The notes under the pieces are model-generated. The model was not told the DNA's origin and did not search any database. It saw only the letters and a list, made by a program, of their open reading frames with translations. The position numbers and the translations under genes are program-made. Positions 3,715-36,001 of a stretch of 64,000 nt of DNA are shown one piece after another. How positions within the stretch are numbered: position 1 is the first letter of the stretch; each line of letters begins with the position of its first letter. The stretch comes from Paracoccaceae bacterium. GTDB lineage: Bacteria > Pseudomonadota > Alphaproteobacteria > Rhodobacterales > Rhodobacteraceae. The stretch lies in NCBI GenBank assembly GCA_029243395.1, contig JAQWSE010000013.1, positions 186,001 to 250,000 of the forward strand. Direction: 5' to 3'.

Positions 3715-3923
3715 GTTGTTGAGAAAAATCAAGAATTGATTACACCCTAACTTTGTGTTTGGTCTATGAAGACTACTGCAAGAAATTACGCTAAGGAATT
3801 AATTTTAAATAACCTTTAAGTCTGAAATATTCTTGTTCAACTTTTTGGTTGAGGTATTAAGTTAGGTACGTGTGGTTTGAAATGAATCACTGACTAATGG
3901 TCTGGATCAAAACATTTTGAAAC

Positions 3924-18995: not shown

Positions 18996-19022
18996 TGGAA
19001 AATCTCCAAGAAAAAATATGAT

Positions 19023-20663: not shown

Positions 20664-20807
20664 ATTTTCCTCCAGTAGGGTATTGCAGTATTTAGTTAGT
20701 AGTTAGGATATAATTTAATTTCAATTATATTTCAATATCTTCAGTAACTATATGTGGCATCCTGCCTCAATCCAAGTAATTTTTACACATTGATGATCAC
20801 AGAAATT

Positions 20808-21482
20808 TTAAGGCGAATAGGTTTTTAACAATTTATTAAAATTAGATTTAAGAGACTTATCAAAATCAGCCATGCTTGTTTCTACCCCTTGATCGAAAAC
20901 AGAAGTAACTTTGGCATTCTTGATGCCACAGGGTATAATTCCTTCAAAATTCTGTATATTGGGAGCTATATTTATAGCTAGGCCGTGAAATGCAATTTTA
21001 CGGCGTACTCTCACGCCTATAGAAGCAATTTTATACCGATCACGATGATTGCTCGATTTGGATGTAGAAATCTTGTAGGTCCATACACCTATAGCCTTTT
21101 TCCAGCGATGAGAGGTTATATCAAAATCCTTAAGCGTTTTTATAACTAGATCCTCCAAGAAGTGTACATATTTTCGGATATCATAATCAAATCTATCTAA
21201 CTTTATCATGACATAGACAATTCTTTGTCCAGGTCCATGATATGTGAATTGACCTCCTCGGTTCGTAGTAACTACTGGAAATTTTTTTGGTTCTTTTAGA
21301 TCTCTAAAGTTCGCAGAAGTTCCTGCAGTATAAACATCAGGATGTTCCAAGAGCCAAATAGCTTCATTTTTTTTATCGGCTATAATGTCTTCCACTCGGG
21401 ATTCCATTTTTTTTAGTGCCTCCTGATAATCAATCAGGCCTTTACTAATAATCCAGTCTAGAGGTTTCTTTAAATTAATCAT
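20808..21482 (-). CDS. lipB: Octanoyl-ACP:protein octanoyltransferase
   Basis: 224 residues. It moves octanoate from acyl carrier protein onto lipoyl domains, the first step of lipoate synthesis. The conserved GGQFTYHGPGQRIVYVM segment, the catalytic lysine region KIASIGVRVRRKIAFHGLAINI and the catalytic cysteine in IIPCGIKNAKVTSV are all present. It is in the same direction as ctaD with a 144-base gap, and is the last core gene before the tRNA-Leu integration site on the other strand. Confidence 0.96.
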   Translation of the reverse strand: MINLKKPLDWIISKGLIDYQEALKKMESRVEDIIADKKNEAIWLLEHPDVYTAGTSANFRDLKEPKKFPVVTTNRGGQFTYHGPGQRIVYVMIKLDRFDYDIRKYVHFLEDLVIKTLKDFDITSHRWKKAIGVWTYKISTSKSSNHRDRYKIASIGVRVRRKIAFHGLAINIAPNIQNFEGIIPCGIKNAKVTSVFDQGVETSMADFDKSLKSNFNKLLKTYSP

Positions 21483-21614
21483 TAGAGATGAAATTTCTGA
21501 ATTTAAAATTAGTTTAAATTATTTTATAAATGAATAACTGTTAATCGTTAATATGAAAATACTTTAATAGCTTGCTATTGAATCTACGATAAAAAAAGTT
21601 ACCTTTTAATTAAT

Positions 21615-21701
21615 GCGGCTGTGGCGGAATCGGTAGACGCGCAGCGTTGAGGTCGCTGTGGGGTAAAACCCGTGGAAGTTCAAGTCTTCTCAGCCGCACC
21701 A
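21615..21701 (+). tRNA. tRNA-Leu, anticodon GAG
   Basis: 87 nucleotides folding as a class II tRNA: acceptor arm gcggctg/cagccgc, anticodon stem cagcg/cgctg around loop ttGAGgt, a variable arm (ggggtaaaacccg region), T loop gttcaag and an encoded CCA end. It reads CUC/CUU leucine codons. Its 3' end is the left edge of an integration hotspot: inverted copies of the last ~17 bases plus downstream flank recur at 32.7 kb and, partly, at 31.9 and 37.5 kb. Confidence 0.97.
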
Positions 21702-21766
21702 CACTTATCTGTAACACATTGATATGTAAGCACTTTTGGTGATGCAGATCAGTGGTGTGAAAGAAA
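21684..21766 (+). repeat. Attachment-site-like repeat, copy 1 (tRNA-Leu 3' end plus flank)
   Basis: Begins inside the tRNA (gtcttctcagccgcacca) and continues into the flank through cacttatctgtaacac to about gtgtgaaaga. The reverse complement of 32655-32735 matches it with about four differences over 81 bases. This is the expected layout for a tyrosine-recombinase attachment site at a tRNA 3' end; the integrase remnant begins at its right edge. Confidence 0.8.
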
Positions 21767-22072
21767 TTGAGAAAGAAAAGTGTGGTTAGTCAAGTGATGA
21801 AGCGTGAAAATGTTTTTTATTATGTAAGACCCGTTCCTAAAGATTTAATTGATCATTATAGTGTAAAAAGATTGTGCTTCAGTTTGAAAACAAAATGTGA
21901 GTCTTTAGCTAATCGTTCTTCCAGATCAATAACTCAACGATTAAATGATTACTGGTATGGGGTCAGATTCGCTAAACTGGATGTGCCTATTAGTAATTCA
22001 ATCTCTTCAAACCAGATAGTTGTTCGAAAAAATGCGCTGCAAAATTCAATGTATCTATCACTGTCGATGTAA
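21767..22072 (+). pseudogene. Truncated tyrosine recombinase (integrase), N-terminal part
   Basis: About 101 residues remain (TTG at 21767, or ATG at 21797). The segment VFYYVRPVPKDLIDHYSVKR...FSLKTK is the N-terminal DUF6538-type domain of phage/island integrases, but the core-binding and catalytic (R-H-R-Y) domains are absent. The high-GC ABC-transporter block starts immediately after. Sitting 65 bases past a tRNA gene, it is the decayed integrase of an element once inserted here. A related fragment lies inverted at 37230-37394. Confidence 0.8.
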
Positions 22073-22176
22073 TGATTGTGGATATTGTATTTTCTGGCAG
22101 TCCGTTCGGCTCTCAAATGTTAAGGGTAAAGAGAGGGGCAAAAAGGCTCCATTTGGTTGTAGAAAAGGAGAAAATC

Positions 22177-23205
22177 ATGCATTTGAGAACGAAAATCAAA
22201 GGCCTATTGAAAGTTACGCCTGCGCTCGTTGCTTTAACTTTCGCGGCAGCGTTTAGCGCTGTACCTGTTAATGCAAAAGACAAAATAAACTGCATTTTCC
22301 CATTCTGGTTCGGCTTTGCACCGGTATTTGTCGCACAGGAAGAAGGGTATTTTGCCAGCGAAGATCTGGAAGTGACCACTGCTTTTGACAATGATCGGGC
22401 CAATGTTCTGCCGGCAATGTCGACCGGTGCAATTGAGTGCACAATGCGCACCATAGGCGAATCGATGTCGCGGCCGCGCCAGGCTGATACAACCGGTACC
22501 ATCATTGGTACAATCGACATTTCCGTGGGCGCGGACGGCGTTGTTGCGTCGGGAGATATCAAATCGATCGAGGATCTTATTGGCAAGACGATGGCCGGTG
22601 AAATCAATCACCCCGGCACCACCCTTGTACAGCATGCGCTGGCGCAGATGGGCAAAAGCATTGATGATATAAACATCCAATTGATCGCCACAGACGATTC
22701 AGCCGCCGTGTTCGAAGACCCCAGTGTGTCAGCAGTGGCCACGTGGGAGCCAATGATGGGGTCCATCGTAAAAAACTCTTCGCGCGAAGGCACGCATGTA
22801 CTTCTGTCGTCCGCCGATTACGAGGGGCTGATCACCGATGTCATCATCGTGCGAACGGATGACTACCGGGAGAACCCTGGGAAATATGCCAAATTCCTGC
22901 GTGGCATCTACCGAGCGATCGACCTTTACAATGCGGACCCCGACAAGTTTATCGCGATCTCGGCCCCGTTCTTTGATACACCTGCCGATGAAATGAAAGA
23001 AGCGTTGGCTGGTGTGAAGTACACGTCATACGAGGAAAGCGTGTCCTACCTGCCATCGGCATCCGGTGACGGGCAGCTCAAAGAGGTGTTCGATGCGTTT
23101 AATGACATTAATGTGGTACTGGACCTGCAGGATGGACCACTGGAGTACCAGCCCTACGTTGATGGTGCGGCATTGGATGGTCTGTTTGACGGCCACACCC
23201 GCTGA
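22177..23205 (+). CDS. ABC transporter periplasmic binding protein, NMT1/SsuA-like
   Basis: 342 residues. The start ATG at 22177 follows aaaggag at ideal spacing; upstream in-frame ATGs would extend past the signal peptide and lack such a site. The signal peptide ends near VPVNA-KD. The mature part follows the NMT1/THI5/SsuA pattern: FWFGFAPVFVAQEEGYFASEDLEV near the start and SIEDLIGKTMAG in the first lobe. It delivers a small organic ligand to the permease/ATPase encoded next. The sequence does not reveal the ligand; the linked kinase, phospho-lyase and ureohydrolase suggest an amine or guanidino compound. GC content is clearly higher than in the flanking core genes. Confidence 0.9.
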   Translation: MHLRTKIKGLLKVTPALVALTFAAAFSAVPVNAKDKINCIFPFWFGFAPVFVAQEEGYFASEDLEVTTAFDNDRANVLPAMSTGAIECTMRTIGESMSRPRQADTTGTIIGTIDISVGADGVVASGDIKSIEDLIGKTMAGEINHPGTTLVQHALAQMGKSIDDINIQLIATDDSAAVFEDPSVSAVATWEPMMGSIVKNSSREGTHVLLSSADYEGLITDVIIVRTDDYRENPGKYAKFLRGIYRAIDLYNADPDKFIAISAPFFDTPADEMKEALAGVKYTSYEESVSYLPSASGDGQLKEVFDAFNDINVVLDLQDGPLEYQPYVDGAALDGLFDGHTR

Positions 23206-23281
23206 TACCAAATTGCTCTGGCGGCAATCGCCAGAGCATCAGCCGCTAAGGCATGAATTACTAAGCAGAAAGGTCGGCTAA

Positions 23282-24070
23282 GTGATAAAATCCCTCTTTG
23301 TGTTTCGCGATGCGCTTCCCCGCAAAACCGAAATAATACTGGGCATATTCGGATTTATTTTTTTCCTCACAATCTGGCACATGACTGCATCCTCCGGCGT
23401 GATCCGGCCAGAATTTCTGCCCACACCTTTCGCCGTAGCTCAGGCCTTTGTTCGCCTGTTTACAGAGCGCGATTTTGCATCCGATATTATCGTTAGCGTC
23501 GGCCGCGTTTGGTTTGCATTTCTTTTGTCGGTGGTGATCGCGGTTCCCTTGGGTTTGATGATGAGCACCTACCGGGCGGTTGGCGCCATCCTCGAACCTT
23601 TTATCGACTTTTTGCGATACCTTCCCGTTCCAGCCCTGGTACCGCTGCTGGTGATTTGGTTTGGCGTCGGCGAGACTTCCAAGATCGCGGTACTTTGGAT
23701 GGGCACCTTCTTTCAACTAATACTCCTGATCGCGGATGATACCAAACGTGTGCCGACCGAATACATTGAATCCGGTCATACGCTGGGCGCATCAAACGGG
23801 CAGATCATGCGCCATATCATAATTCCGGCTGCACTGCCTAATATGATTGATAATCTGCGCATCACACTGGGTTGGTGCTGGACATATCTGATCATCGCCG
23901 AAATCGTAGCTGCGAATTCGGGCATTGGTCACATGATCTGGTCACTGCGCCGCTTTGTAAAAACGCCCGAGGTCATGGCCGGTATCATTGCCATCGGCAT
24001 CATTGGTCTTTTGACAGATCAGGCTTTTCGTTTCGCCCATGCGCGGCTTTTCTCGTATCAGCGTAGGTGA
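23282..24070 (+). CDS. ABC transporter permease, SsuC/TauC type
   Basis: 262 residues with about six membrane helices. The EAA loop that docks the ATPase is visible (EYIESGHTLGASNGQIMRHIIIPAALPNM). The GTG start at 23282 is preceded by gaaagg. It is second in the imported operon, 76 bases after the binding-protein gene and 3 bases before the ATPase gene. Confidence 0.92.
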   Translation: MIKSLFVFRDALPRKTEIILGIFGFIFFLTIWHMTASSGVIRPEFLPTPFAVAQAFVRLFTERDFASDIIVSVGRVWFAFLLSVVIAVPLGLMMSTYRAVGAILEPFIDFLRYLPVPALVPLLVIWFGVGETSKIAVLWMGTFFQLILLIADDTKRVPTEYIESGHTLGASNGQIMRHIIIPAALPNMIDNLRITLGWCWTYLIIAEIVAANSGIGHMIWSLRRFVKTPEVMAGIIAIGIIGLLTDQAFRFAHARLFSYQRR

Positions 24071-24073
24071 GAC

Positions 24074-24874
24074 ATGGATAAGTTTATCAAAGTAACTGAT
24101 GTCACCAAAACCTACTGGTCGGAGGATGGAAAAACAGAAACCAAGGTTGTGCTGCCTTTGTCGTTGACCATCGCCGAGGGTGAAATGGTGATGTTTCTAG
24201 GGCCTTCAGGCTGCGGCAAGACAACATTGATGCGCATTATCGGTGGGCTTGAAAAACAAGATCAGGGTAGCATTACACTTGCAGGTGATCTGCTGGCGGG
24301 CCCGGACCGGCGTCGCGGTATGGTGTTTCAGTCTTATTCCTCTTTCCCCTGGCTTCGTGTGCGCGACAATATCAAGTTTGGCACAAGGTATCGCAAAGAT
24401 GTCTCAGCCGCTGAAAAGGAAGAGATTACGGATCATTATATGGACATGGTTGGCCTCTTTGCCTACAGTGATTTCTATACCAATCGGATATCTGGTGGGA
24501 TGCGGCAGCGGGTAGCGATTGCCCGCACATTGGCATCTTCTCCTGATATTTTATTGATGGATGAGCCTTTTGGTGCGCTGGATGCGCAAACTCGTGAGCA
24601 CCTGCAATTTCAATTGATGGACATCAACAAAAGCGAAAAGAAAACCACCATCTTCGTAACCCACGACGTCGAAGAGGCAATTTTGCTGGCGGATCGTGTC
24701 GTGATCTTCTCCGCCCGACCTGCGCGCGTGGTCAAAGAGATTGACGTGAATGCAGTAATCCCGGCAGAAGATCGGCGCAACAACACAGCGGACATGCAAA
24801 AGTTCTTTTCCCTCAGGAATGAGATTCTGAAAATCATCCGTGCCGAATACCGACAAACTATGGAGACGATCTGA
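24074..24874 (+). CDS. ABC transporter ATP-binding protein, SsuB/TauB type
   Basis: 266 residues. Walker A GPSGCGKTT, Q-loop VFQSYSSFPW, signature ISGGMRQRVAIART (first residue I instead of the commoner L), Walker B DILLMDEPFGALD and H-loop FVTHDVEEA are all present, so it should be active. It energises the permease just upstream. The downstream SDR gene's ATG begins one base after this gene's stop. Confidence 0.95.
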   Translation: MDKFIKVTDVTKTYWSEDGKTETKVVLPLSLTIAEGEMVMFLGPSGCGKTTLMRIIGGLEKQDQGSITLAGDLLAGPDRRRGMVFQSYSSFPWLRVRDNIKFGTRYRKDVSAAEKEEITDHYMDMVGLFAYSDFYTNRISGGMRQRVAIARTLASSPDILLMDEPFGALDAQTREHLQFQLMDINKSEKKTTIFVTHDVEEAILLADRVVIFSARPARVVKEIDVNAVIPAEDRRNNTADMQKFFSLRNEILKIIRAEYRQTMETI

Positions 24875-24875
24875 C

Positions 24876-25649
24876 ATGGGCGTTGATCTTGCAGGAAAAA
24901 AGGTTCTGATAACGGGGGCTAATCGAGGCATCGGGTATGGTTTGGCCGAAGGGTTTCTCAAGGCTGGGGCAACGGTTACAATCGTCGCTTTAGAAGAGGA
25001 CGTGACCGAGATCGCGGGGCAATTGAGCGAAACCTATAAGCGGCAGGTGCAAGGCATAACTTGCGATATTGCCGAATTGGATCAGGTTGAACGGATGGCC
25101 GTTCAGGTGGACCAAGTGGATGTGCTGGTCAACAACGCTGGCTTTGAATACATAACTCCAATCACAGATCCGTCCGAGCGGACTGATGAGATTTTTCGTA
25201 GGATCATCGAGATCAACGTCATCGGCACGTTTTCTGTGACCCGTCGGTTACTCGATAAAATCCCAGATGGTGGGCGTATCGTGAACACGGCTTCGATGTG
25301 GGGCAAAACCGCGGTGGCGGAATTCAGCGCCTACTGTGCATCAAAACATGCGGTCATTGGCCTGACGCGGTCGTTGTCACAGGAATTGGCATCTCGTCGT
25401 ATTTCGGTAAATGCAGTGTGTCCCGGATGGGTGCGCACCATGGCCTCGATGCGATCCCTTTCCTTCATGGCGGCACAACAGCAACGCCCCGAGGCAGACA
25501 TGCTGGACGAGATTGTTGCGGCACAGGCGCTGGACGGTCTGATGGAGCCACGTGATATGGTGGACATGTATTTGTTTCTAGCCGGTCCTGCGGCTGACAA
25601 TATCACCGGGCAATCCTTTACCATTGACCGCGGGGAGTTGATGCAATGA
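24876..25649 (+). CDS. Short-chain dehydrogenase/reductase (SDR) 1
   Basis: 257 residues. Rossmann motif TGANRGIG, NNAG, a catalytic Ser...Tyr-x-x-x-Lys (TASMWGK ... YCASK) and the PG motif (CPGWVRT). It oxidises or reduces a hydroxyl/carbonyl group with NAD(P). I chose the ATG at 24876, two bases after the ABC ATPase stop, with ggaga upstream. The tight packing with the transporter and with a second SDR (4-base overlap) points to one pathway; the substrate is unknown. Confidence 0.92.
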   Translation: MGVDLAGKKVLITGANRGIGYGLAEGFLKAGATVTIVALEEDVTEIAGQLSETYKRQVQGITCDIAELDQVERMAVQVDQVDVLVNNAGFEYITPITDPSERTDEIFRRIIEINVIGTFSVTRRLLDKIPDGGRIVNTASMWGKTAVAEFSAYCASKHAVIGLTRSLSQELASRRISVNAVCPGWVRTMASMRSLSFMAAQQQRPEADMLDEIVAAQALDGLMEPRDMVDMYLFLAGPAADNITGQSFTIDRGELMQ

Positions 25650-26389
25650 CCGCAGAACTTATTGGCAAGACAGCTTTGGTGACTGGGGCCGCACAAGGCA
25701 TCGGGGCCGCTGCTGCAAAATCTTTGGCCGAGGCGGGAGCACGTGTCATCCTCTCGGATCGCAGAGACAGCATTGCCACACAAAAAACCATCGAAACTGC
25801 GGGAGGGACCGCGCGCACGGAAGCCGCAGATGTCGCAGATGCTTCAAGTGTGGATGGGTTGTTTCAAAGTATCCTGGAGAATGAAGGAAATCTGGATTTT
25901 GTCGTAAACGCTGCCGGAATCTTGTCGGAAGGCACAATCATCGACATGCCGGTTTCCGAGTTTGACCGAATCATATCGGTTAATCTGCGCGGGTCTTTCC
26001 TGATCGCCCAGGGGGCCGCGCAGATGATGGCGTCTGCCAAATCTGGGAGGATTATTTTGATCTCTTCAGAGCTTGCTTATCTGGGCCGCGCTGAGTTTTC
26101 GGCCTACTGCGCCTCGAAGGCTGGAGTTGTTGGAATGACACGCGCGTTGGCGCGGGAACTGGCGCCAGACGTTCAGGTGAACTCAGTCGCACCCGGACCG
26201 GTTGATACCCCTATGCTGGCACTGGAGAACATGTCCCAGGAATGGATTGACCGTGAAATTGATAATCCGCTTGAACGGGTTGGCAAGCCGCGTGAAATTG
26301 CGGCGTTGGTCCGCTTCCTTTGTGGTCCTGACGCTGGGTTCTTTACGGGCCAGACGCTCAGTCCCAACGGCGGAGCGGTGATGATTTAG
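25646..26389 (+). CDS. Short-chain dehydrogenase/reductase (SDR) 2
   Basis: 247 residues, overlapping SDR 1 by ATGA. Motifs are TGAAQGIG, NAAG, the catalytic serines around ISSELAYLG, YCASK and APGPVDTPM. It resembles the FabG-like oxidoreductase branch. Two different SDRs in tandem suggest successive oxidation steps, or epimerisation by oxidation and re-reduction, on the imported compound. Confidence 0.92.
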   Translation: MTAELIGKTALVTGAAQGIGAAAAKSLAEAGARVILSDRRDSIATQKTIETAGGTARTEAADVADASSVDGLFQSILENEGNLDFVVNAAGILSEGTIIDMPVSEFDRIISVNLRGSFLIAQGAAQMMASAKSGRIILISSELAYLGRAEFSAYCASKAGVVGMTRALARELAPDVQVNSVAPGPVDTPMLALENMSQEWIDREIDNPLERVGKPREIAALVRFLCGPDAGFFTGQTLSPNGGAVMI

Positions 26390-26404
26390 GAGAGGAAATT
26401 TAAA

Positions 26405-27322
26405 ATGCTACAACGACCTGTGCCTTGGCCAAACGGTGCCAAAGTTGCCTGCGCGATCACTCTGGACATGGACGCTGACAGCCTTGTGCATATTCATCAC
26501 GGATCAAACGCTGCGAACAAACTGTCTGCGATATCTTCACTGCGTTATGGTCCCGAAGTTGCCATTCCACGAATTCTGGACACCTACCGAAGACTTGGAC
26601 TGAAGCAGAGTTTTTTCATCCCGGCCTGGTGTATTGAAAATCATCCCAAGGCGATTGATGCCATTGTAAAAGATGGGCATGAGATTGGGTATCACGGCTA
26701 TATCCACGAAGCCCCCAACAGCCTGACTCACAATCAGGAACATGACTGGATGTGCCGGTCGATCGAGATCATTGAGCGTCATACGGGCAAACGACCGCGT
26801 GGCAACCGCGCGCCGCTCTATCACATGTCGGCCAAGACGCCTGAATTGCTGGCGATGGAGGGGTTCCTTTACGACAGCTCGCTGATGGGTGACGAGGTGC
26901 CATATGTGCTGAAAACCCAAAAAGGCAAAGTGATGGAACTGCCAGTCAGTTGGGCCACGGACGACTGGCCACCATACGTGCATGCGCCCGATCTAGATTA
27001 CATGTTTCAAATTCTCGCTCCGGACCGTGCCATGGAAGTTTTCATGGCTGAGTTCGAAGCCCTGAGGGCCTGTCCAGGTGGTCTTTGGATTGGTGTCTGG
27101 CATCCCTTTGTCAGCGGGCGTTTGTCTCGTTGGCATAGGGTTGAAAAGGCGATTGAAGACATGATGTCAACAGGCGACGTTTGGTTTGCCACCATGGAAG
27201 AGATTGCAGCCCATGTGAACACCGTCACTGCCGAGGGAAGATATTCCCCCCGTGTTGATAAGCTGCCTTATCACAGTGAGCCGCAGGTACCGCAGGACCT
27301 AATCGGCAAGGCCGAGGCCTAG
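26405..27322 (+). CDS. NodB-homology polysaccharide-deacetylase family hydrolase (PuuE/HpPgdA-like)
   Basis: 305 residues with an aggagagg ribosome-binding site. NodB motifs: TLDMDADS (metal-binding/catalytic Asp), GHEIGYHGYIHE (HxxxH metal ligands) and RGNRAPLYH. The sequence pattern is that of the cytoplasmic branch that includes PuuE-type allantoinases and Helicobacter PgdA, rather than secreted chitin deacetylases: no signal peptide is present. In this operon it more plausibly hydrolyses a cyclic amide/ureide or N-acyl bond of a small molecule than a polymer. Its 3' end overlaps the convergent PLP-enzyme gene by 4 bases. Confidence 0.88.
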   Translation: MLQRPVPWPNGAKVACAITLDMDADSLVHIHHGSNAANKLSAISSLRYGPEVAIPRILDTYRRLGLKQSFFIPAWCIENHPKAIDAIVKDGHEIGYHGYIHEAPNSLTHNQEHDWMCRSIEIIERHTGKRPRGNRAPLYHMSAKTPELLAMEGFLYDSSLMGDEVPYVLKTQKGKVMELPVSWATDDWPPYVHAPDLDYMFQILAPDRAMEVFMAEFEALRACPGGLWIGVWHPFVSGRLSRWHRVEKAIEDMMSTGDVWFATMEEIAAHVNTVTAEGRYSPRVDKLPYHSEPQVPQDLIGKAEA

Positions 27323-28662
27323 AGGTGCACCGTTTCCAGAGCGCCTTTCAGCTCCGTCAGGAATTGATCAGCGTTCTGGGCGCTGAAGGTCAGAGGAGGG
27401 CGTACTTTAAGGACATTGGCATTGGCTGCCGTTGCGGAAATAAGAACCCGGCGGCGGCGCAATTCATTGACCAATGCCAAAGCTAACGGGCTATCAGGCT
27501 CTCGTGTTTCGCGATCTTTGACAATCTCAATCCCCATATACAGCCCCGAGCCACGCACGTCACCGATGCGTTCATCCCCTTGCATGATGTCGTTCAGGCT
27601 TGAAAGCATCGTTTTGCCAACCACCCTTGAATTGGCAATCAGGTTTTCGTCCTGCAAAACCTCAAGCGTCGAATTGGCTGCGGCCATAGCCACAGTGTTC
27701 CCGCCGAACGTATTGAAATACCGCATGTCATGGCCAAACTTGGATGCTACTTCGGGTCGTACCGCAATGCCCGCCACCGGGTATCCATTGCCCATAGGCT
27801 TGCCCATTGAAACAATGTCGGGCACCACGCCGTGGCGCTGATAACCCCACATGTGTGATCCTGTGCGTGCGAAACCGCATTGCACTTCGTCCGCAACAAA
27901 TATCCCACCCGCGTCGCGGACGACTTTCAGGACAGGCTCAAGAATACTACGGGAATGCGCAAAAATACCGTCAGATGAAAATAGGCTGTCCGCAACAAAG
28001 GCGGCCAGCCCTTGCCCACGCCGTTCCAGATCGCGGATTTGCTCGGTCACCTGTGCGGCAAGCCAATCGCCCATATCGTCCGTATCCACACGGTATGTGT
28101 CAGGGGCCGAGACCCGCCGGACCCATGTGCCCAAGCGCGAGTTTTCACCCATGGAGGGCGAGAAGCCCGAGGTCAGCTCGGAATTACCATGGTAGGCCTC
28201 GGAGGTGACGATTATGCCTTCATGCCCAGTGTGATACTTGGCCATGCGCAGCGCCAGGTCATTCGCCTCGGATCCGGTGCAGGTGAACATCACATGGCCG
28301 ATTTCCTCCTCAAAGGTAGCCAGCAGTTTTTCGGCAAACCCCAGAATACCATCCTGCATATAGCGGGTATGGGTGCACAGCGTGCTCATCTGCGCCATGA
28401 CAGCGGCGTTCACATGTGGGTGGCAATGGCCGACAGAAACCACGTTGTTATAAGCATCCAGATACTCATTACCGTCGGTGTCGTACATGAACACTCCGCT
28501 TGCCCGGCTGAATTCAACTGGATCAGCGTAGAACAACCGGTACGCTGGCCCCAGCAGACGCGCTCGGCGATGGACAAATTCCCTGGTCTGCGCATCCAGC
28601 TGATCGACCTTGGCGGGATCAAATCCATTCACCATCTTGCCACGCTTTGTTTTGATATTCAT
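27319..28662 (-). CDS. Class-III PLP enzyme of the phospho-lyase/aminotransferase type
   Basis: 447 residues. The fold-type I class-III pattern is complete: TGSEANDLALRMAK, ADEVQCGFARTG, and the PLP lysine in DIVSMGKPMGNGYPVAG. The GKPMGNG-[YH]-P form is characteristic of ethanolamine-phosphate and phosphohydroxylysine phospho-lyases as well as some transaminases. It sits directly behind an APH-family kinase gene (stop abuts the start; aaaggag precedes the ATG). Such kinase/lyase pairs phosphorylate a hydroxyl group and then eliminate phosphate and ammonia. I therefore favour phospho-lyase over transaminase, as inference. Confidence 0.85.
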   Translation of the reverse strand: MNIKTKRGKMVNGFDPAKVDQLDAQTREFVHRRARLLGPAYRLFYADPVEFSRASGVFMYDTDGNEYLDAYNNVVSVGHCHPHVNAAVMAQMSTLCTHTRYMQDGILGFAEKLLATFEEEIGHVMFTCTGSEANDLALRMAKYHTGHEGIIVTSEAYHGNSELTSGFSPSMGENSRLGTWVRRVSAPDTYRVDTDDMGDWLAAQVTEQIRDLERRGQGLAAFVADSLFSSDGIFAHSRSILEPVLKVVRDAGGIFVADEVQCGFARTGSHMWGYQRHGVVPDIVSMGKPMGNGYPVAGIAVRPEVASKFGHDMRYFNTFGGNTVAMAAANSTLEVLQDENLIANSRVVGKTMLSSLNDIMQGDERIGDVRGSGLYMGIEIVKDRETREPDSPLALALVNELRRRRVLISATAANANVLKVRPPLTFSAQNADQFLTELKGALETVHL

Positions 28663-29739
28663 CTAAAGGCTCCTTTCACTATTGAAAAAGGGTGTAAGAA
28701 TGTCTGACACTTCTTCAGCCGAGCGCGTCAGAAACCAGTCAAGCTGATGCCAGCCCTGTTCTGTATTGCGTATTATATAGCGTTCGTTTTCTGGAAACAG
28801 CTTGACCCGCCACAGGGTCAGTAGTGCTCGTGTTACAATTCGCCCCATGACCAGATGGGGGATCAGGACCAGCTCTTCATTGGTCAGGTCGGCAATGCTT
28901 AGATAGCCCTTCAGAATGTCGCGCGCGCGGTAGAAAAGGTCCTCATTCGGGGTCTCTGGCAATTGGTTTAGGAGGGCCGTTGCTACATCCACTGCAATCG
29001 CAGTCCTCACCGCATCACCGAAATCAATGACACCTGTCACAAAGGCCGGATTGTCGTGATCCACAATGATATTCGACTTACTGAAATCATTGTGCAGCAC
29101 CTGCTTGCGACACTGGCGCAATTGTATTTCGACTTGACGGAACCTCTCTAACCCCAGTGACAGGGCGCGGCGCTGTGTGTGGTTGTCTACCTCATCCAGC
29201 AGATGCTCCAGTGTCAAAAGATGTTGAACATCCCATCCATAGCACCGATCTTCGTTCTCGTGCGAAAACCCTTCGGTAGCGTATCGCAATCGCGCCAGCA
29301 TCTTGCCAATCTGAACGCGCCCACGGGGATCTGATTGGGTTTCATCCAGCGGCGTTCCTTCAAGAAAGGTTAGCAATCGCACCCAACGCTGCGATCCGTC
29401 AACATCTGTGATCTGGAAAATATCATGTCCTCCCTCAGAATTAATGATACGTGGGACAGGCATAGTTGGATCACGGGTTTCCACATACCGAAGGATGCTG
29501 TTCTGAAAGTCAATCTCCCCGAAAGGTTCATCCGGATTGGCAACTTTCAATATAAATTTTCGGGCGTCCTCGGTTGTGACGCGGAAGGTGTCATCCTTTT
29601 CGGTGTCAAACCGTTTTAGTGCACTGCCCATCATTCCATAGTAGTCTTCCAGAAGCCGTAGGGCACGCTCTTGTGTCATCGGAACATAGGCACAGGCCAG
29701 CCCGTCTGGTTTAGCCGCTGGGTTGGATTGATCTGTCAT
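28663..29739 (-). CDS. APH-family small-molecule kinase (hydroxylysine-kinase-like)
   Basis: 358 residues with the kinase-like fold: the Brenner-type catalytic loop VLHNDFSKSNIIV (HNDxxxxN) and the metal-binding VIDFGDAVRT. Members phosphorylate hydroxyls of small amines (choline, homoserine, hydroxylysine, aminoglycosides). Pairing with a phospho-lyase-type PLP enzyme is the arrangement seen for hydroxylysine breakdown in animals (kinase then lyase), so a hydroxy-amine substrate is likely. aggac precedes the ATG, and the upstream ureohydrolase gene ends 21 bases before. Confidence 0.85.
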   Translation of the reverse strand: MTDQSNPAAKPDGLACAYVPMTQERALRLLEDYYGMMGSALKRFDTEKDDTFRVTTEDARKFILKVANPDEPFGEIDFQNSILRYVETRDPTMPVPRIINSEGGHDIFQITDVDGSQRWVRLLTFLEGTPLDETQSDPRGRVQIGKMLARLRYATEGFSHENEDRCYGWDVQHLLTLEHLLDEVDNHTQRRALSLGLERFRQVEIQLRQCRKQVLHNDFSKSNIIVDHDNPAFVTGVIDFGDAVRTAIAVDVATALLNQLPETPNEDLFYRARDILKGYLSIADLTNEELVLIPHLVMGRIVTRALLTLWRVKLFPENERYIIRNTEQGWHQLDWFLTRSAEEVSDILTPFFNSERSL

Positions 29740-29760
29740 TGCTATCGTCCTGATCCAGCC

Positions 29761-30711
29761 CTAACGCGCACTGACGGCTTCGGCCAAAAGACAGAGCAAT
29801 TCGTACATGACGGTCGCGCCGGTCAGGGATGTCAACCCGCCTACATCAAAAGGCGGCGAAACCTCCACCATATCTGCACCTACATAGTTCAGATTTCGAA
29901 AACCACGGATCAAAGCCATTGCCTCGGGGGTGGTCAGCCCGGCAATCTCGGGTGTGCCAGTGCCTGGGGCAAAGGCTGGATCAATACTGTCGATATCAAA
30001 GCTCATATAAACAGGTGTATTACCAACAATGTTGCGGGTTTCTTCGATAATTGCATCAACACCGCGCTTTTGAACCTCTTCGACAAACATCACACGCATG
30101 CCAGCTGCTTCGGAATAGTCCCAACCCTCTGAGACATTTTGCGCCCCACGAATGCCGATTTGCACAGTTTTAGTCGAATCGATCAACCCTTCCTCGTGGG
30201 CGCGGCGAAACGGGGCGCCGTGGTTGAATTTTGACCCCTGAAAGCTATCCCATGTATCGGTATGAGCGTCGATGTGAATGAACGCGATGGGTTGCGTTGC
30301 AATCGCGCGCATGATGGGCAAGCTGACTGAGTGATCGCCGCCGCAAGATAATGGCATGACACCTGCGGCCACCATGACCGCAATGAAGTCACTGATGTTC
30401 TTGTGCGTCTTTTCTATATCGAATACTGAATGAAACGGGACATCACCAACATCTGCAATCTGGCACAACTCATAGGGATTGATGCGGGTTACATGGTTGA
30501 TGGCACGCATCAGGCTTGACTGATTTCTGACCTCGCGCGGACCATGCCGGGCACCCGGACGGTTCGTCAAAGCCCCGTCATAGGGAATGCCGACCATTCC
30601 TATGTCAATATTTTCAAGGGTTTGTGCGATGGGCGCACGCATGAATGTTGCCAATCCCGAATACCGTGGGGCGGACATATCGGGAGTTATTGGAGAGGTG
30701 TAAACTGACAC
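29761..30711 (-). CDS. Agmatinase/guanidino-acid ureohydrolase family protein
   Basis: The arginase-fold metal motifs are intact: CGGDHS, HIDAHTDTW and SFDIDSIDP. It should hydrolyse a guanidino group to urea plus an amine with a binuclear Mn centre. I prefer the GTG at 30711 (316 residues): aaagg lies 8 bases upstream and it leaves room for a divergent promoter. An ATG at 30786 (341 residues) would sit 33 bases from the lysR start. It is first gene of the minus-strand trio ureohydrolase-kinase-PLP enzyme. The substrate could be agmatine, guanidinobutyrate or a less common guanidino compound. Confidence 0.9.
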   Translation of the reverse strand: MSVYTSPITPDMSAPRYSGLATFMRAPIAQTLENIDIGMVGIPYDGALTNRPGARHGPREVRNQSSLMRAINHVTRINPYELCQIADVGDVPFHSVFDIEKTHKNISDFIAVMVAAGVMPLSCGGDHSVSLPIMRAIATQPIAFIHIDAHTDTWDSFQGSKFNHGAPFRRAHEEGLIDSTKTVQIGIRGAQNVSEGWDYSEAAGMRVMFVEEVQKRGVDAIIEETRNIVGNTPVYMSFDIDSIDPAFAPGTGTPEIAGLTTPEAMALIRGFRNLNYVGADMVEVSPPFDVGGLTSLTGATVMYELLCLLAEAVSAR

Positions 30712-30763
30712 GAGTTGAAGCCTTTCTGTGAATGAGTACTTCAATCTCTCCTCTTGTTTACTG

Positions 30764-30806
30764 CGATACAATCCATTATATAACATGGAAACATTGACGT
30801 GTATCG
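30764..30806. promoter_or_regulatory. Inverted repeat in the lysR/ureohydrolase divergent promoter
   Basis: CGATACA (30764-30770) and TGTATCG (30800-30806) form a perfect 7-bp inverted repeat spaced by 29 bases, between the divergent starts. LysR regulators often bind such dyads to control both themselves and the divergent operon. The spacing is wider than the usual T-N11-A box, so this is tentative. Confidence 0.35.
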
Positions 30807-30818
30807 TAGGAACATATC

Positions 30819-31718
30819 ATGCTTACATCTGTGTCCAACCCTGACCTACATTTGCTGCGCGTGTTCATCGCTGTTGCAGAATCCGGTGGTTTCTCTAAGG
30901 CCCAGATCGCGCTGAATGTCAGTCAGTCTACCATCAGCACGCAGATGATTGACCTGGAGACGCGCCTCGGAATGCGATTGTGTCGCCGTGGGAGGGTTGG
31001 ATTTGGGCTCACGGATGAAGGGCACGAGGTTTTCAAATATGCCAAAGACCTTGTTCAGGATTGCGATGAATTTGTTGGGAAGGTGAACGGGATACGCGGT
31101 GATCTGAGTGGGGAACTAAGAATTGCGACTGCGGATTCGCTGTTGGGAAACAAAGCCTTTCCATTTGAGACAATTTTGGCAGAACTCAGAGAAGCCATGC
31201 CTGCGGTCGTTTTACACTTGAGTGTTATGGATCCCCTAGAGATCGAGAGGCTTGTTCTCGAACAAAAGCTACATATGGGAATTCACACCTTTCCCAATCA
31301 CGTGCCCGGTCTTCGCTATATCAAGATGTTCGATGAAACGCAGATATTGTATTGTGGGCATGATCATCCACTTTTTGATGGCGATCTTACCTATGAAGGC
31401 GCTGAGCTTGAGACATATGATTACGCTGGTCGATCATACTATGGCGGAGCCCTGAGGCCTGGCAATTTGAAAACAAAGAACAACCATATTTATGCGGGTA
31501 GCATGGACGGTATTGCAGCGGCGATTTTATCTGGTCGTTTCCTTGGTCATTTGCCCGTTCAATGTGCTCAGACTTGGGTCGAGCAAGGGAAGATGAAACC
31601 ACTGTCCACTGAATTTCACTCTTATAAGGTGACCTTTGAGTGTGTATTTCCGATTGGCACCCGGATGGCCAACATAAAAAGGGTGCTGGAAGAAGTCATG
31701 TCGAAGTATTCGGCTTGA
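30819..31718 (+). CDS. LysR-family transcriptional regulator
   Basis: 299 residues. N-terminal winged helix-turn-helix (LLRVFIAVAESGGFSKAQIALNVSQSTISTQMIDLE), then the periplasmic-binding-like effector domain. It is divergent from the ureohydrolase operon, the standard layout for a LysR activator of adjacent catabolic genes. The effector is likely the imported compound or an intermediate. It is the last intact gene of the high-GC block, which ends about 80 bases after its stop. Confidence 0.93.
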   Translation: MLTSVSNPDLHLLRVFIAVAESGGFSKAQIALNVSQSTISTQMIDLETRLGMRLCRRGRVGFGLTDEGHEVFKYAKDLVQDCDEFVGKVNGIRGDLSGELRIATADSLLGNKAFPFETILAELREAMPAVVLHLSVMDPLEIERLVLEQKLHMGIHTFPNHVPGLRYIKMFDETQILYCGHDHPLFDGDLTYEGAELETYDYAGRSYYGGALRPGNLKTKNNHIYAGSMDGIAAAILSGRFLGHLPVQCAQTWVEQGKMKPLSTEFHSYKVTFECVFPIGTRMANIKRVLEEVMSKYSA

Positions 31719-31740
31719 AACTGTCGTGCAAAGTATTTCA

Positions 31741-31800
31741 TTACTTATCCTCTTCTGTCTGCGCTTCTTTCAATCGGTCAAAGATGGTAGTCATCGTCTA
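31741..31800 (-). pseudogene. Possible 3' scrap of a gene at the right edge of the high-GC block
   Basis: On the minus strand a short frame (17 codons, MTTIFDRLKEAQTEEDK, then stop) has the base composition of the imported block and ends abruptly where the repeat beginning aacgtgcctgttgac (31802) starts. It may be the tail of a gene cut by the junction. No family can be assigned. Confidence 0.25.
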
Positions 31801-31801
31801 A

Positions 31802-31854
31802 AACGTGCCTGTTGACAGTGACTCACGAATAACTAACTTATTGTAATTGCTTAC
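31802..31854. repeat. 53-bp repeat, inverted copy of 37526-37578
   Basis: The reverse complement of this segment is repeated, with no difference that I could see, at 37526-37578 (from gtaagcaattacaataag to caacaggcacgtt). Its first 15 bases (aacgtgcctgttgac) also form a perfect inverted repeat with 31971-31985. Confidence 0.8.
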
Positions 31855-31890
31855 ATATCAATGTGTTACAGATAAGTATGGTGCGGTTGA
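31849..31890 (-). repeat. Degenerate tRNA-Leu 3'-end/attachment-site copy 3
   Basis: In reverse orientation, gcttacatatcaatgtgttacagataag matches the flank of the tRNA-Leu site (cttatctgtaacacattgatatgtaagc). The adjacent tatggtgcggttga is a mutated tRNA 3' end. Confidence 0.65.
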
Positions 31891-31987
31891 TAAGGCATCA
31901 TTGCCTTATACCAGCCCCAAGTTTATCTTAATATACACAATATCAATAACTTATCTGTAAGGTTCTAGGTGTCAACAGGCACGTTTT
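31850..31987. repeat. 138-bp direct repeat, copy D1
   Basis: Runs from cttacatatcaatgtg to aacaggcacgtttt and is repeated at 32689-32826 with only scattered substitutions. Each copy contains the tRNA-end remnant and the 11-mer ttacagataag in both orientations (left as given, right as cttatctgtaa), a layout reminiscent of integrase arm/core sites. Confidence 0.8.
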
Positions 31988-32147
31988 CTTTCACACTTTC
32001 TTTCACAGTTTAAATAACCGTTACTAGTATAGGGGAGAGCTTACTGCTGGAGGCTCAAATTGAAATTATTATATTTAGCTCTCGTTTTTAAAGATGGATC
32101 TGTTATAAACATAGGGGTGGGTATCTGCCCATTGAATTTGTAACATC

Positions 32148-32531
32148 ATGCGTATCTTTCTAGTCATACCCTTTCTGATAACCCTAGCTACTCAAGCCGC
32201 AGTGGCAGAGACAATAAAAGTTGGCGATGTTTACTATTGCAGTATGAAAGCTTTTGCAGATAGCCTCAGTGAAAATAACTGGGAATTAAAAAAATACAAA
32301 CTAGAGCAGTTCAAATTCAAAGTTGAAGAAGAACAGATTGTCTTTGGTGCAGGGGGTTATTTCACTGATTTAAAGAAACCAATTAGTTTCATTGGATATG
32401 ACCTTTTGGAGGCAAGAAGTCCTTATTCTTTTTTTGTACTGGATACTGAGTCCCAACCTCATACTTTTTCATACGGCATGATAACTTATTCTTCTGCCAT
32501 GCTAACCACAGGCACTTGCGATAAGTTTTAG
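32148..32531 (+). CDS. Small secreted protein, unknown family
   Basis: 127 residues. A clear signal peptide (MRIFLVIPFLITLATQAAVAE) is followed by a ~107-residue soluble domain with cysteines at VYYCSMK and near the C-terminus (GTCDKF) that could pair in the periplasm. I do not recognise the domain. It lies between the two 138-bp repeats, so it may be cargo of a repeat-bounded unit. Base composition is like the core, unlike the preceding high-GC block. Confidence 0.6.
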   Translation: MRIFLVIPFLITLATQAAVAETIKVGDVYYCSMKAFADSLSENNWELKKYKLEQFKFKVEEEQIVFGAGGYFTDLKKPISFIGYDLLEARSPYSFFVLDTESQPHTFSYGMITYSSAMLTTGTCDKF

Positions 32532-32654
32532 CTCCTGAATTAAGCTAAAACCTTTTTAATAATATTTCATCAACTGCTGAACTTGTCGTAATAGCTTTGT
32601 AGGCTCGTTCCAAGCTCGTCAGCTGGGTTGTAACCACACTTTTCTTTCTCATAA

Positions 32655-32735
32655 TCTTTCACACCACTGATCTGTATCGCCAAAAGTTCTTACATATCAA
32701 TGTGTTACAGATAAGTGTGGTGCGACTGAGAAGAC
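32655..32735 (-). repeat. Attachment-site-like repeat, copy 2 (inverted relative to tRNA-Leu)
   Basis: Read on the minus strand it reproduces the tRNA-Leu 3' end (gtcttctcagtcgcacca) and 60+ bases of its downstream flank, about 95% identical to 21684-21766. Together the two copies bracket the imported block, but in inverted rather than direct orientation. Confidence 0.85.
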
Positions 32736-32826
32736 ATCATTGCCTTATACCAGTCCCAAGCTCATCTTAATATACACAATATCAATAACTTATCTGTAAG
32801 GTTCTTGGTGTCAACAGGCACGTTTT
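32689..32826. repeat. 138-bp direct repeat, copy D2
   Basis: Second copy of the repeat described at 31850-31987. Here the tRNA-end remnant is better preserved (gtggtgcgactgagaagac). Confidence 0.8.
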
Positions 32827-32844
32827 GTACATCAGTCTGGATGT

Positions 32845-32955
32845 CTTCCCAAAAATAACAGATACACAGATCTTTAAGGGGGAAAGACCAAAGCAGCCCC
32901 TTATAGATTATGCTTTCAGACTTTCTTTCTAGTTTTGGAGGAGGAGGATCAGTAG
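32845..32955. repeat. ~111-bp direct repeat left of the SBP/enolase cassette
   Basis: From cttcccaaaaataacagata to gaggatcagtag. The same sequence with a few substitutions and indels recurs at 35708-35825, on the other side of the two intact genes at 33091-35615. Confidence 0.8.
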
Positions 32956-33090
32956 ATCTTATCACTTATGGTTTTTTTGAATTTTAAACATATCATTATA
33001 GAAACTAATCATCTTATTGTATGCTTTTAAAGTTAGAAGTAGAAAATTACTGGCGTATAAGATATTGAAGAGAAACATAAGGAAAGTGAA

Positions 33091-34281
33091 ATGTTAAGAC
33101 TCCAAGGAATAACTTGGGAACACAAGCGAGCAGTTCGACCGTTGGAAGCACTTAATCTTGCCTTCAAGAAACAAAGACCTGATGTAGAAATCAATTGGAA
33201 TACGCGTCCTCTATCAGGATTTGAGTTCGATCCAATTGATCATTTGGCTATCAATAATGATCTCATTATTTATGACCATCCATTCTGTGGAAGAGTTCAC
33301 ACGACGGGATGCCTCATAAATATGGATGAAATTTTAGAAATGGCCGGTGGTTCAACTTCTTATGTTGGCCCGAGCATGGATTCATACTGCTACGGCGGGA
33401 ATAGTTGGGCCATCCCAGTCGATGCGGCCTGTCAGGTTGCTGCCTACCGTCCAGACCTTCTGTCTAATCTTGATCATGAAATTCCTTTAACTTGGGATGA
33501 TGCTTGTCTACTAGCGGAAAAATGTGCGACCCGTGGCCTTACAGCATGTATAGGGTTAAATGGGGTACACGCATTAATGACATTTTTTTCGCTATGTGCA
33601 AATCTTGGTCAACCTTTCGCTAGTGACAATTGTGGTCCAAGTGAAAATAACTCAGCTATCCCAGAAGCTTTAGAGCAAATGCGTCGGTTTTTAATTCTTT
33701 GCCGTGCTCCCGTGCTAGATTGGAACAGTATTGAGTTGCAAGAACAACTTTCTTCGTCTGATGAATTAGTTTATTGCCCTGCAGTATATGGTTTCTCGAC
33801 CTATGGTGAAGGTGATCGCCAAAATAAACTAGCCTTTGCTCACTTTCCTGGCCTGGAGAAGTCAAATTCTAATGCTGGATCTACAATTGGTGGCGCAGGT
33901 CTTGGTATTTCAACACGAGTTTTGGATAATCCTTCAAGATGTGAAGCAGCAATAGAATATGCTAGCCTAGCAGCTTCTCCACTGGTGCAGTCATCTGTTT
34001 TTTCTACTCATCATGGACAACCCGCTTGCTTGGAAGCTTGGCGCAATGATCAAATTGATTTAACATTCAATAGATTTTTCTCAGCAACTAAGGCTACCAT
34101 TGAAAGCTCCTGGATACGGCCACGCTATCATGGTTATCTACGATTTCAAGCTATTGGAGGTAATTTGATTGAAGCACATTTAAGAGGAGACTTGAGCGAA
34201 AAAGAATTTTTATTACGCTTATACAAACTCGATGCAGACTGTCGTGATAATCCGAATCCAAATCAGAAAAGCTTGTTTTAG
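33091..34281 (+). CDS. Extracellular-solute-binding-protein-like protein lacking a signal peptide
   Basis: 396 residues. The fold resembles ABC sugar/spermidine-type binding proteins: LNLAFKKQRPDVEINWNTRPL near the start, DLIIYDHPF, GNSWAIPVDAACQVAAYRPDLL, PLTWDDACLLAEKC and a GAGLGIS segment. It begins directly with the mature-type strand (MLRLQGITWEHKRAV), so no secretion signal is visible, and no permease or ATPase gene is near. It may have become a cytoplasmic ligand-binding or enzyme-like protein. It is paired with the enolase-superfamily gene downstream, and both are bracketed by the ~115-bp direct repeats. Confidence 0.75.
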   Translation: MLRLQGITWEHKRAVRPLEALNLAFKKQRPDVEINWNTRPLSGFEFDPIDHLAINNDLIIYDHPFCGRVHTTGCLINMDEILEMAGGSTSYVGPSMDSYCYGGNSWAIPVDAACQVAAYRPDLLSNLDHEIPLTWDDACLLAEKCATRGLTACIGLNGVHALMTFFSLCANLGQPFASDNCGPSENNSAIPEALEQMRRFLILCRAPVLDWNSIELQEQLSSSDELVYCPAVYGFSTYGEGDRQNKLAFAHFPGLEKSNSNAGSTIGGAGLGISTRVLDNPSRCEAAIEYASLAASPLVQSSVFSTHHGQPACLEAWRNDQIDLTFNRFFSATKATIESSWIRPRYHGYLRFQAIGGNLIEAHLRGDLSEKEFLLRLYKLDADCRDNPNPNQKSLF

Positions 34282-34484
34282 ATCTGATTACAATTGAACG
34301 CATCCGATATAAATTAACCTTTTTAGGATAATTTCTTTAGGGACTTTAATTTATTAAAAAAAAAGTAAATAAGAAAAAACCAAATAATTTTCTAAAATTT
34401 TTGTTTTATATAGAAATAGGAAAACTATTTTCTAATTGTAAACCAAAATAAACTTGATATCTTAAAAGCATCTGGGAGGCTATT

Positions 34485-35615: not shown

Positions 35616-35707
35616 CCCAAAGAAACCGTTCTTTAAGATAGGGCATTAAAACGGTCTTCTGGTACATAAATGCTTCATCAGAATCACAAAATATCCTACC
35701 CTTTGTC

Positions 35708-35825
35708 CTTCCCAAAAATAACAGATACTCAGACACAAAGACCCTCAATGGAGAAGGACCAAAGCAGCCCTTATAGATTATGCTTTCAGATTTTCTTTCT
35801 AGTTTTGGAGGAAGAGGATCAGTAG
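35708..35825. repeat. ~118-bp direct repeat right of the SBP/enolase cassette
   Basis: Second copy of 32845-32955, with the same order of landmarks (cttcccaaaaataacagata, cttatagattatgctttcag, ctagttttggagg, gaggatcagtag). Confidence 0.8.
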
Positions 35826-35853
35826 TTGTCAGTCTTAAGAAACGCTAAAGAAA

Positions 35854-35939
35854 GTGTAGGGAGTGTAAGCTAAAACCTAAAGTCTCTCGTGAAGAGACTT
35901 ATATAGAAAAGTTATGGTTTGACCCTACACACCCTACAC
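35854..35939. other. Nested palindromic, structure-forming non-coding segment
   Basis: Outer arms gtgtaggg (35854-35861) and ccctacac (35923-35930, repeated at 35932-35939), inner arms aaacc (35873) and ggttt (35916), and a central 7-bp hairpin agtctct-cgtga-agagact (35881-35899). The nested order would fold into one long stem. It could be a small RNA, a recombination site or a decayed replication element. Confidence 0.5.
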
Positions 35940-36001
35940 GTTCCAATGTATTAATTAGAAGTCAGTTGCTGCTTCTGATCTGAGAGAAAGGCCTAGGTAG
36001 A

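Follow-up and report, generated by a model that had tools for sequence, protein, structure and literature searches.

A ten-gene block and its parts

We analysed a 64,000-nt stretch of the genome of a Paracoccaceae bacterium (GenBank assembly GCA_029243395.1, contig JAQWSE010000013.1, positions 186,001 to 250,000 of the forward strand), which we refer to as the window. Positions 22177-31718 of the window hold a block of ten genes in which an earlier reading of the DNA from its letters (the sequence-only reading) had recognised an importer, two short-chain dehydrogenases (SDRs), a NodB-type hydrolase, a pyridoxal-phosphate (PLP) enzyme, a kinase and a ureohydrolase. The open reading frame (ORF) list and family scans confirmed this gene set: all ten named gene types are uninterrupted frames with significant family matches.

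22177..23205, + strand: SBP, periplasmic binding protein of the NMT1/THI5-SsuA type (PF09084, E 2.8e-20)
23282..24070, + strand: PERM, ABC permease of the TauC/SsuC type (PF00528, E 3.2e-25)
24074..24874, + strand: ATP, ABC ATPase (PF00005, E 2.8e-30)
24840..25649, + strand: SDR1, short-chain dehydrogenase (PF00106, E 3.7e-49)
25646..26389, + strand: SDR2, short-chain dehydrogenase (PF13561, E 1e-56)
26405..27322, + strand: NODB, NodB-fold hydrolase related to PuuE allantoinase and cyclic imidases (PF01522, Polysacc_deac_1, E 1.5e-15)
27319..28662, - strand: PLP, class III PLP enzyme (Aminotran_3) of the ammonia-phospholyase type, with GKPMGNG
28663..29739, - strand: KIN, APH-fold small-molecule kinase (PF01636, E 1.6e-26)
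29761..30786, - strand: URE1, arginase-family ureohydrolase of the guanidino-acid type
30819..31718, + strand: LYSR, LysR regulator (PF00126 and PF03466)

The first six genes are read from the plus strand and PLP, KIN and URE1 from the minus strand, with LYSR on the plus strand and divergent from URE1. SBP, whose AlphaFold2 model has a pLDDT of 88.3, matched SsuA_fam (E 2.9e-24) and PERM matched PRK10160 (E 4.3e-45), each below the model cut-off. The catalytic Tyr and Lys of SDR1 both lie within invariant columns of an alignment of 29 sequences; SDR2 was aligned in 30. Two starts probably need moving, that of SDR1 to near 24876 and, from a by-eye comparison with homologues, that of URE1 to near 30678.

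A TMGATGTA-like block was seen by eye 5' of SBP in seven of nine aligned loci (window 22020-22176), and CATCGAC, part of the complement of that block, 5' of the LysR gene in four of the nine (window 30679-30818). As candidates for a common LysR site, these blocks are a weak lead.

Recurrence of the gene set in other genomes

Scanning 84,980 species genomes with a NODB alignment returned 326 relatives, and the best 80 loci were kept; these 80 are the nearest of the relatives, not a random sample. Loci were found with the NodB protein alone, presence was tested with the nine proteins other than LysR, and LysR was seen separately. ORF calls in the related loci were mechanical, and some frames are overextended. 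The other nine genes lay beside NODB in 7 of the 80 loci, LYSR being found in all seven: a marine metagenome-assembled genome or MAG (L033), Pseudohalocynthiibacter (L034), Rhodobacteraceae CCMM004 (L035), Ruegeria (L036-L038) and Tepidamorphus (L039). Named strains with the complete set are Ruegeria halocynthiae DSM 27839 and Pseudohalocynthiibacter aestuariivivens RR4-35. Recurrence of the set elsewhere was the sequence-only reading's own test of its proposal, and the seven complete loci bear it out.

All seven loci contain two blocks, SBP-PERM-ATP-SDR1-SDR2-NODB and URE-KIN-PLP, each with a fixed internal order, while the position and orientation of the blocks relative to each other vary. 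Such fixed-order blocks that swap place and orientation argue for a cassette made of two operons that would serve one purpose.

A smaller core of SDR1, SDR2 and NODB was present in 30 of the 80 loci, seven of which also carry a GMC oxidoreductase. The locus DNA examined held a ureohydrolase in 27 of these 30 core loci, the exceptions being L040, L047 and L063; the L040 contig ends within a URE1 fragment (71% identity), and the L063 genome has URE2, a second type of ureohydrolase, elsewhere. The order URE2-SDR1-SDR2-NODB occurs on plasmids of Gemmobacter, Roseovarius and Shinella.

No description of the gene combination was found in the open-access literature searched, a coverage that leaves most subscription papers outside, and a literature search on guanidino-hydroxy acids gave nothing. 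The literature on saxitoxin, bacterial degradation and guanidine yielded nothing at the gene level, and this line was dropped.

An apparently mobile high-GC island next to a tRNA gene

The GC content is 0.520 across 22035-31722, compared with 0.368 and 0.369 in the 10-kb flanks. This high-GC island, which the sequence-only reading had not mentioned, adjoins a tRNA-Leu gene and is bordered by repeats.

21615..21701, + strand: tRNA-Leu(GAG), left neighbour of the island
21684..21788, + strand: inverted-repeat arm overlapping the tRNA 3' end, 93% complementary to 32631-32735
22035..31722: cassette extent common to a second genome (L033), 90.0% DNA identity over 9690 bases
31845..31987, + strand: 143-nt repeat right of the island, with a second copy at 32684-32826 (92%)

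The second genome, L033 (also recovered as L131, genome G615), is the marine MAG named above and belongs to the same family. Outside the cassette, the L033 DNA (810 bases to one side and about 5.4 kb to the other) matches nothing at window positions 19000-36000. Across the ten genes, dN/dS between the window and L033 is 0.05-0.17, which points to purifying selection on each cassette gene. A congener (G003) matches the window at 95% up to 21701, and the remaining 392 bases of its contig, all that could be compared past that point, are unmatched. The cassette appears to have been acquired horizontally and apparently moved between genomes.

The flanking repeats, about 105-143 nt long and including the tRNA-Leu 3' end, form an inverted pair across the island and a direct pair to its right. 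Similar copies turned up in 4 of 11 further genomes searched within the genus, and these tRNA-Leu-end repeats may mark an insertion hot spot. The direct repeats on the right lie 839 bases apart and enclose a 127-aa frame. Beyond them, outside the shared cassette, we noted by eye a solute-binding-protein-like and an enolase-superfamily-like frame (window 33091-35615).

A ureohydrolase with a distinctive pocket

The best Protein Data Bank (PDB) match of URE1 is 3-guanidinopropionase (GpuA, 3nip; 353 bits), followed by guanidinobutyrase (GbuA; 276 bits); the protein of entries 7esr and 7oi1, which we take to be GdmH, scored 164 bits. We aligned 48 ureohydrolase rows, leaving out frames of 290 aa or fewer (6 of 53). 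The six metal-binding His and Asp residues are all kept in the window URE1, and each site is kept in at least 47 of the 48 rows. One report (PMC9772407) names R72 of guanidinobutyrase as a possible contact of the substrate carboxylate. At this site Arg is found in all 21 rows of at least 43% identity, window included (R94), Ser or Ala in all 22 URE2 rows, and Gly, Asp or Phe in the other five.

Next to the metal site, N154 and Y157 of GpuA are aligned with W179 and F182 of the window URE1, and Trp and Phe occupy these sites in all 15 URE1 rows of at least 59% identity. Tyr157, the specificity residue of 3-guanidinopropionase, is thus F182 in the window. This W/F pair in place of N154/Y157 suggests that the specificity of URE1 probably differs, and URE1 looks like a guanidino-acid hydrolase with a pocket of its own.

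URE2 is distinguished by the motif DAHLDFVD, where URE1 has DAHTDTW. Of the 30 core loci, 16 have it next to the SDR pair; the window genome carries it on another contig (C5:99946-100884, 72%), and it was found in 13 of 16 genomes chosen from the 80 loci. Among 295 family genomes, 29 have NODB, and a hand tabulation placed URE2 in 26 of these 29 (Fisher p 2e-6). We rejected URE2 as a specific cluster member, as 146 of the 295 family genomes carry it. Nor could a substrate be read from its usual neighbours, no neighbour family occurring in more than 4 of 16 neighbourhoods.

The window genome (G000, 2.49 Mb) contains seven ureohydrolase matches. In this genome (L003, positions 1438-3778; G000 C9), a ureohydrolase gene is directly followed by what by eye is a glutamine-synthetase-like gene, a pair that possibly belongs to another guanidino or polyamine route.

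A NodB-fold hydrolase with varying partners

Eight NCBIfam models matched NODB. PuuE was the best of them (E 7.8e-23), at 80.9 bits against a cut-off of 424.6; the other seven are polysaccharide, chitooligosaccharide or peptidoglycan-type deacetylases. PDB matches included 3rxz, 3qbu (second-best) and PuuE (3cl6), with 3qbu and PuuE among the best five. The catalytic Asp/His motifs are invariant in all 80 aligned sequences. According to the available text of a study of fungi (PMC9304392), the dehydrogenase HxnW produces a hydroxy-piperidinedione whose ring is opened by HxnM, a cyclic imidase with the NodB fold, and the structure closest to HxnM is 3qbu. The sequence-only reading had suggested that the hydrolase could be a ring opener, and HxnM supplies a family precedent for that role; by this analogy, we slightly favour ring opening as the reaction of NODB.

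The gene neighbourhoods of some NODB relatives point in the same direction as URE1 with respect to chemistry. A ureohydrolase, agmatine-deiminase-like, DUF1989 or creatininase-family gene is present in 52 of the 80 loci. Agmatine-deiminase-like proteins lie beside NODB in three deltaproteobacterial loci (L085, L095 and L103, two of them short contigs), with no ureohydrolase in the locus DNA examined, and in L069 such a protein occurs together with URE2; those of L069, L085 and L095 are all below the AguA cut-off. AguB (N-carbamoylputrescine amidase) is found in L085 and L095, the L095 copy scoring above the NCBIfam equivalog cut-off. With a guanidino-acid-type ureohydrolase in the block, and agmatine-deiminase-like, N-carbamoylputrescine amidase, DUF1989 and creatininase-family genes near some NODB relatives, the guanidino function proposed earlier is supported.

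The oxidising partners vary as well. L070 and L088 keep SDR2 and URE2, lack SDR1 and have a molybdenum hydroxylase, and some NODB loci without a ureohydrolase or without one or both SDRs carry an agmatine-deiminase-type enzyme, a molybdenum hydroxylase or a flavin monooxygenase. A broader idea is that the NODB subfamily comprises cyclic acyl-guanidine hydrolases, providing the common ring-opening step of undescribed guanidine-heterocycle pathways in Pseudomonadota and deltaproteobacterial lineages. The oxidants (SDR pair, molybdenum hydroxylase, GMC) and the guanidine strippers (URE1, URE2, AguA/AguB) would then be exchangeable, and a kinase-phospholyase finish would have been added in the window subtype. 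We regard this generalisation as rather doubtful.

Several neighbourhoods deserve record. In L095 (69-7434, Desulfobacterales) there follow in a row a molybdenum hydroxylase, the NODB relative, an agmatine-deiminase-like protein, N-carbamoylputrescine amidase, an isochorismatase-fold protein and a putrescine/ornithine carbamoyltransferase-like gene. L041 (3277-14420) holds an aromatic amino-acid (histidine-type) lyase, a PnrA-type ABC importer, DUF1989, a NODB relative, a ureohydrolase and a creatininase-family gene. A di-iron phenol-hydroxylase-type oxygenase and its reductase adjoin a triple RidA protein and a NODB relative in L061 (500-3854). The Bacillota loci L074, L079 and L089 are clusters of RidA, a NODB relative and HpaB, with two copies of this core in L089.

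A kinase and phospholyase-type pair, probably gained once

The best PDB matches of PLP are the phospholyase 5g4i (E 5.6e-99) and ETNPPL (6tor, E 7.4e-96); apart from these two, a decarboxylase (E 6.4e-51) alone falls within the 1e-50 limit. PLP carries GKPMGNG around the PLP lysine, which we take to be an ammonia-phospholyase motif. A kinase and phospholyase of these families would between them break down a vicinal amino alcohol to ammonia, phosphate and an aldehyde. In this class of PLP enzymes the known lyases are few, as stated in the available text of PMC8154272. KIN has no close solved relative (2ppq, E 1e-5); its APH catalytic motifs, HND...N and DFGD, are conserved, and its model has a pLDDT of 89.3.

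At E <=1e-50, KIN was found in 7 of 394 family genomes, with at least 60% identity in four (the window genome, G615, G704 and G736), and at 1e-70 in 2 of 385 genomes of the class, the window's included. KIN and PLP occur together at >=50% identity in 7 of the 80 NODB loci. In the NODB tree (80 rows, the window plus 79 loci; L059 was too short and left out), these seven loci and the window form one group (support 99/98) that requires one change, and KIN and PLP were therefore probably gained once. The pair also exists without the core on plasmids: in Paracoccus beside HyuAB-type hydantoinases and an ABC importer, in Thioclava beside amidases, and in Sinorhizobium, Aminobacter, Azospirillum and Agrobacterium beside GntR or other genes.

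The sequence-only reading had placed the kinase beside a phospholyase-type PLP enzyme and likened the pair to hydroxylysine breakdown. The family matches hold and the pair stays together in other genomes. The likeness itself survives as an analogy, since the family pair is present and the guanidino context favours another substrate. Hydroxylysine breakdown as the pathway itself was rejected: the genes beyond kinase and lyase have no place in it, and they point to a guanidino setting. The earlier interpretation is thus partly supported, in its recurrence, guanidino function, kinase-phospholyase pair and NodB precedent, with hydroxylysine reduced to an analogy.

A proposed route and its alternatives

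We interpret the block as a catabolic cassette that was acquired horizontally and acts on a guanidino compound taken up by the cell, most likely a small guanidine-holding ring, and give this reading a probability of roughly 0.42. What the data show directly are the families of the genes, their catalytic residues, the recurrence and two-block structure of the set, its sharing between genomes and the selection on it; the substrate, order, regulation and every reaction are inferred. The parts of the reading differ in strength. That the ten genes form one functional unit is very probable, and the cassette likely handles a guanidino compound; we lean towards the kinase and lyase finishing the same molecule, and the full reaction order is proposed tentatively.

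The ABC importer would bring the guanidino compound in. The two SDRs would oxidise a hydroxyl or hemiaminal carbon to a cyclic amide (acyl-guanidine or imide-like), which NODB would open to a guanidino acid, an SDR-then-NODB order adopted because it is modelled on HxnW-HxnM. URE1 would then take off the guanidine carbon as urea to give an amino acid. In the window subtype, the URE1 product would have a hydroxyl next to the amine-bearing carbon; KIN would phosphorylate it, and PLP would eliminate ammonia and phosphate to leave an aldehyde or ketone acid. LysR would control the cassette.

A number of observations weigh against this scheme. The URE frame is split in two in the Ruegeria MAG L036, and a further locus, found through KIN (L132, genome G704), has the set except for an intact SDR2, whose position is taken by a damaged or strongly diverged frame. 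URE2 is enriched with NODB, yet is a common enzyme anyway. In the window genome (97.9% complete), the searches recovered neither a urease alpha subunit nor any urea carboxylase over the cut-off. The cell would thus forfeit the urea and probably profit from the carbon skeleton and the amine instead. None of the guanidino-type enzymes searched was present in 28 of the 80 loci, several of which are short contigs. The Bacillota loci, with RidA, HpaB, a flavin reductase and an NCS1 permease, are among these 28, suggesting that NODB-family substrates vary and are not tied to guanidines everywhere. Finally, 23 of the 30 core loci lack KIN and PLP, a pair that could serve a second substrate.

This last absence is also what would be expected if two pathways shared one cassette, the core (ABC importer, SDR1, SDR2, NODB and URE1) acting on a guanidino compound and KIN and PLP on an unrelated amino alcohol, merely travelling and being regulated with it. 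The separate pairs with GntR, hydantoinase, amidase or other neighbours in the six genera above favour such a split, as does the confinement of KIN and PLP to one NODB clade, which makes one later gain probable. In the seven full loci, however, the pair sits in the URE1 block in the order URE-KIN-PLP, as consecutive steps would predict, and we consider two pathways unlikely. Another departure from the proposed route concerns the chemistry of NODB, which might be a true de-N-acetylase acting on a guanidino-bearing N-acyl amino sugar or aminocyclitol, with KIN as a sugar or aminocyclitol kinase. KIN does fall in the aminoglycoside phosphotransferase superfamily and seven of the eight NCBIfam models matching NODB are deacetylases, but PuuE heads those models, and the top five PDB matches include both PuuE and 3qbu. 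Moreover, none of 20 neighbour-family representatives scanned was a glycosidase, and other NODB loci carry NCS1 and PnrA-type importers, HpaB or molybdenum oxidases; a de-N-acetylase is improbable.

Two further explanations turn on the ureohydrolase. Both URE1 and URE2 match the HutG model, below its cut-off, so these enzymes could act on a formimino or amidine group of an imidazole or pyrimidine substrate with no guanidine; the aromatic amino-acid lyase near NODB and the ureohydrolase in L041, and nucleobase-type importers beside other NODB loci, fit this idea. It is quite improbable given that URE1 has its nearest relatives among guanidino-acid hydrolases and retains the Arg facing the carboxylate, and that the agmatine-deiminase-like and AguB partners point to guanidines. 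The proximity of URE1 to GpuA and then GbuA could instead mean that the block serves a known use, that of 3-guanidinopropionate or 4-guanidinobutyrate, with its own importer and with the other enzymes accessory. Here the W/F pair of the URE1 pocket, with its probably different specificity, stands in the way, and neither acid calls for a pair of SDRs, nor for the NodB hydrolase, kinase and phospholyase, making a simple guanidino acid improbable.

If the ring-opening reading is true, a widespread NodB subgroup that at present is annotated just as polysaccharide deacetylase would acquire a function, and the cassette would provide a bacterial pathway that disposes of the amino alcohol remaining after urea removal by means of a kinase and a phospholyase. 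Guanidino compounds are rich in nitrogen, and little has been learned about which of them are used by bacteria in the sea. The cassette is compact, apparently mobile and found repeatedly, and its ureohydrolase has a distinctive pocket; it offers a lead to a new substrate that can be tested directly.

Comparison with known systems

The nearest solved ureohydrolases are GpuA and GbuA of P. aeruginosa, whose metal ligands and carboxylate-facing Arg are kept in URE1. URE1 departs from GpuA in having W179/F182 for N154/Y157, and in its setting with SDRs, a NodB hydrolase, a kinase and a phospholyase. In the fungal nicotinate pathway, as described in the available text of PMC9304392, a dehydrogenase (HxnW) makes a cyclic imide whose ring a NodB-fold hydrolase (HxnM) opens, as proposed for the SDRs and NODB; unlike the cassette, that system is fungal, involves no guanidine and no ureohydrolase, and continues with an amidase. 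PuuE allantoinase shares its fold with NODB and is its best NCBIfam model, although NODB scores far below the cut-off. The enzymes ETNPPL, PHYKPL and 5g4i, with an APH-type kinase as in hydroxylysine breakdown, resemble the window pair in that PLP is nearest to 5g4i and 6tor and the kinase gene is adjacent; the cassette pair differs in its guanidino context and in a KIN that is just distantly related to solved kinases.

Guanidine itself is used through GdmH or through guanidine carboxylase/CgdAB, and metformin through a hydrolase. These systems share with the cassette the ureohydrolase superfamily, and DUF1989 occurs near some NODB relatives. A search for guanidine/urea carboxylase in the window genome gave 11 partial matches, none over the TIGR02712 cut-off, and weak matches also appeared in 14 of 14 control genomes; against Rfam, window positions 20500-34500 contained no guanidine riboswitch at E values up to 5, with a tRNA as the one match. 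Guanidine or urea carboxylation was set aside, there being no carboxylase over the cut-off in the genome and no riboswitch in that part of the window. In the heteromeric metformin hydrolase, the available text of PMC11399263 describes a subunit pair of which one lacks the metal ligands. A heteromer of that type was rejected for the cassette: URE1 and the URE2 neighbouring it in other loci both keep their ligands, and in the window genome URE2 lies elsewhere.

AguA and AguB, the other known way of stripping a guanidine, are absent from the window cassette; their counterparts stand beside NODB in L085 and L095, where the locus DNA examined has no ureohydrolase. Taken as a whole, and as far as sequence comparison can place it, the cassette looks like an undescribed route for the import and dismantling of a guanidine-bearing compound.

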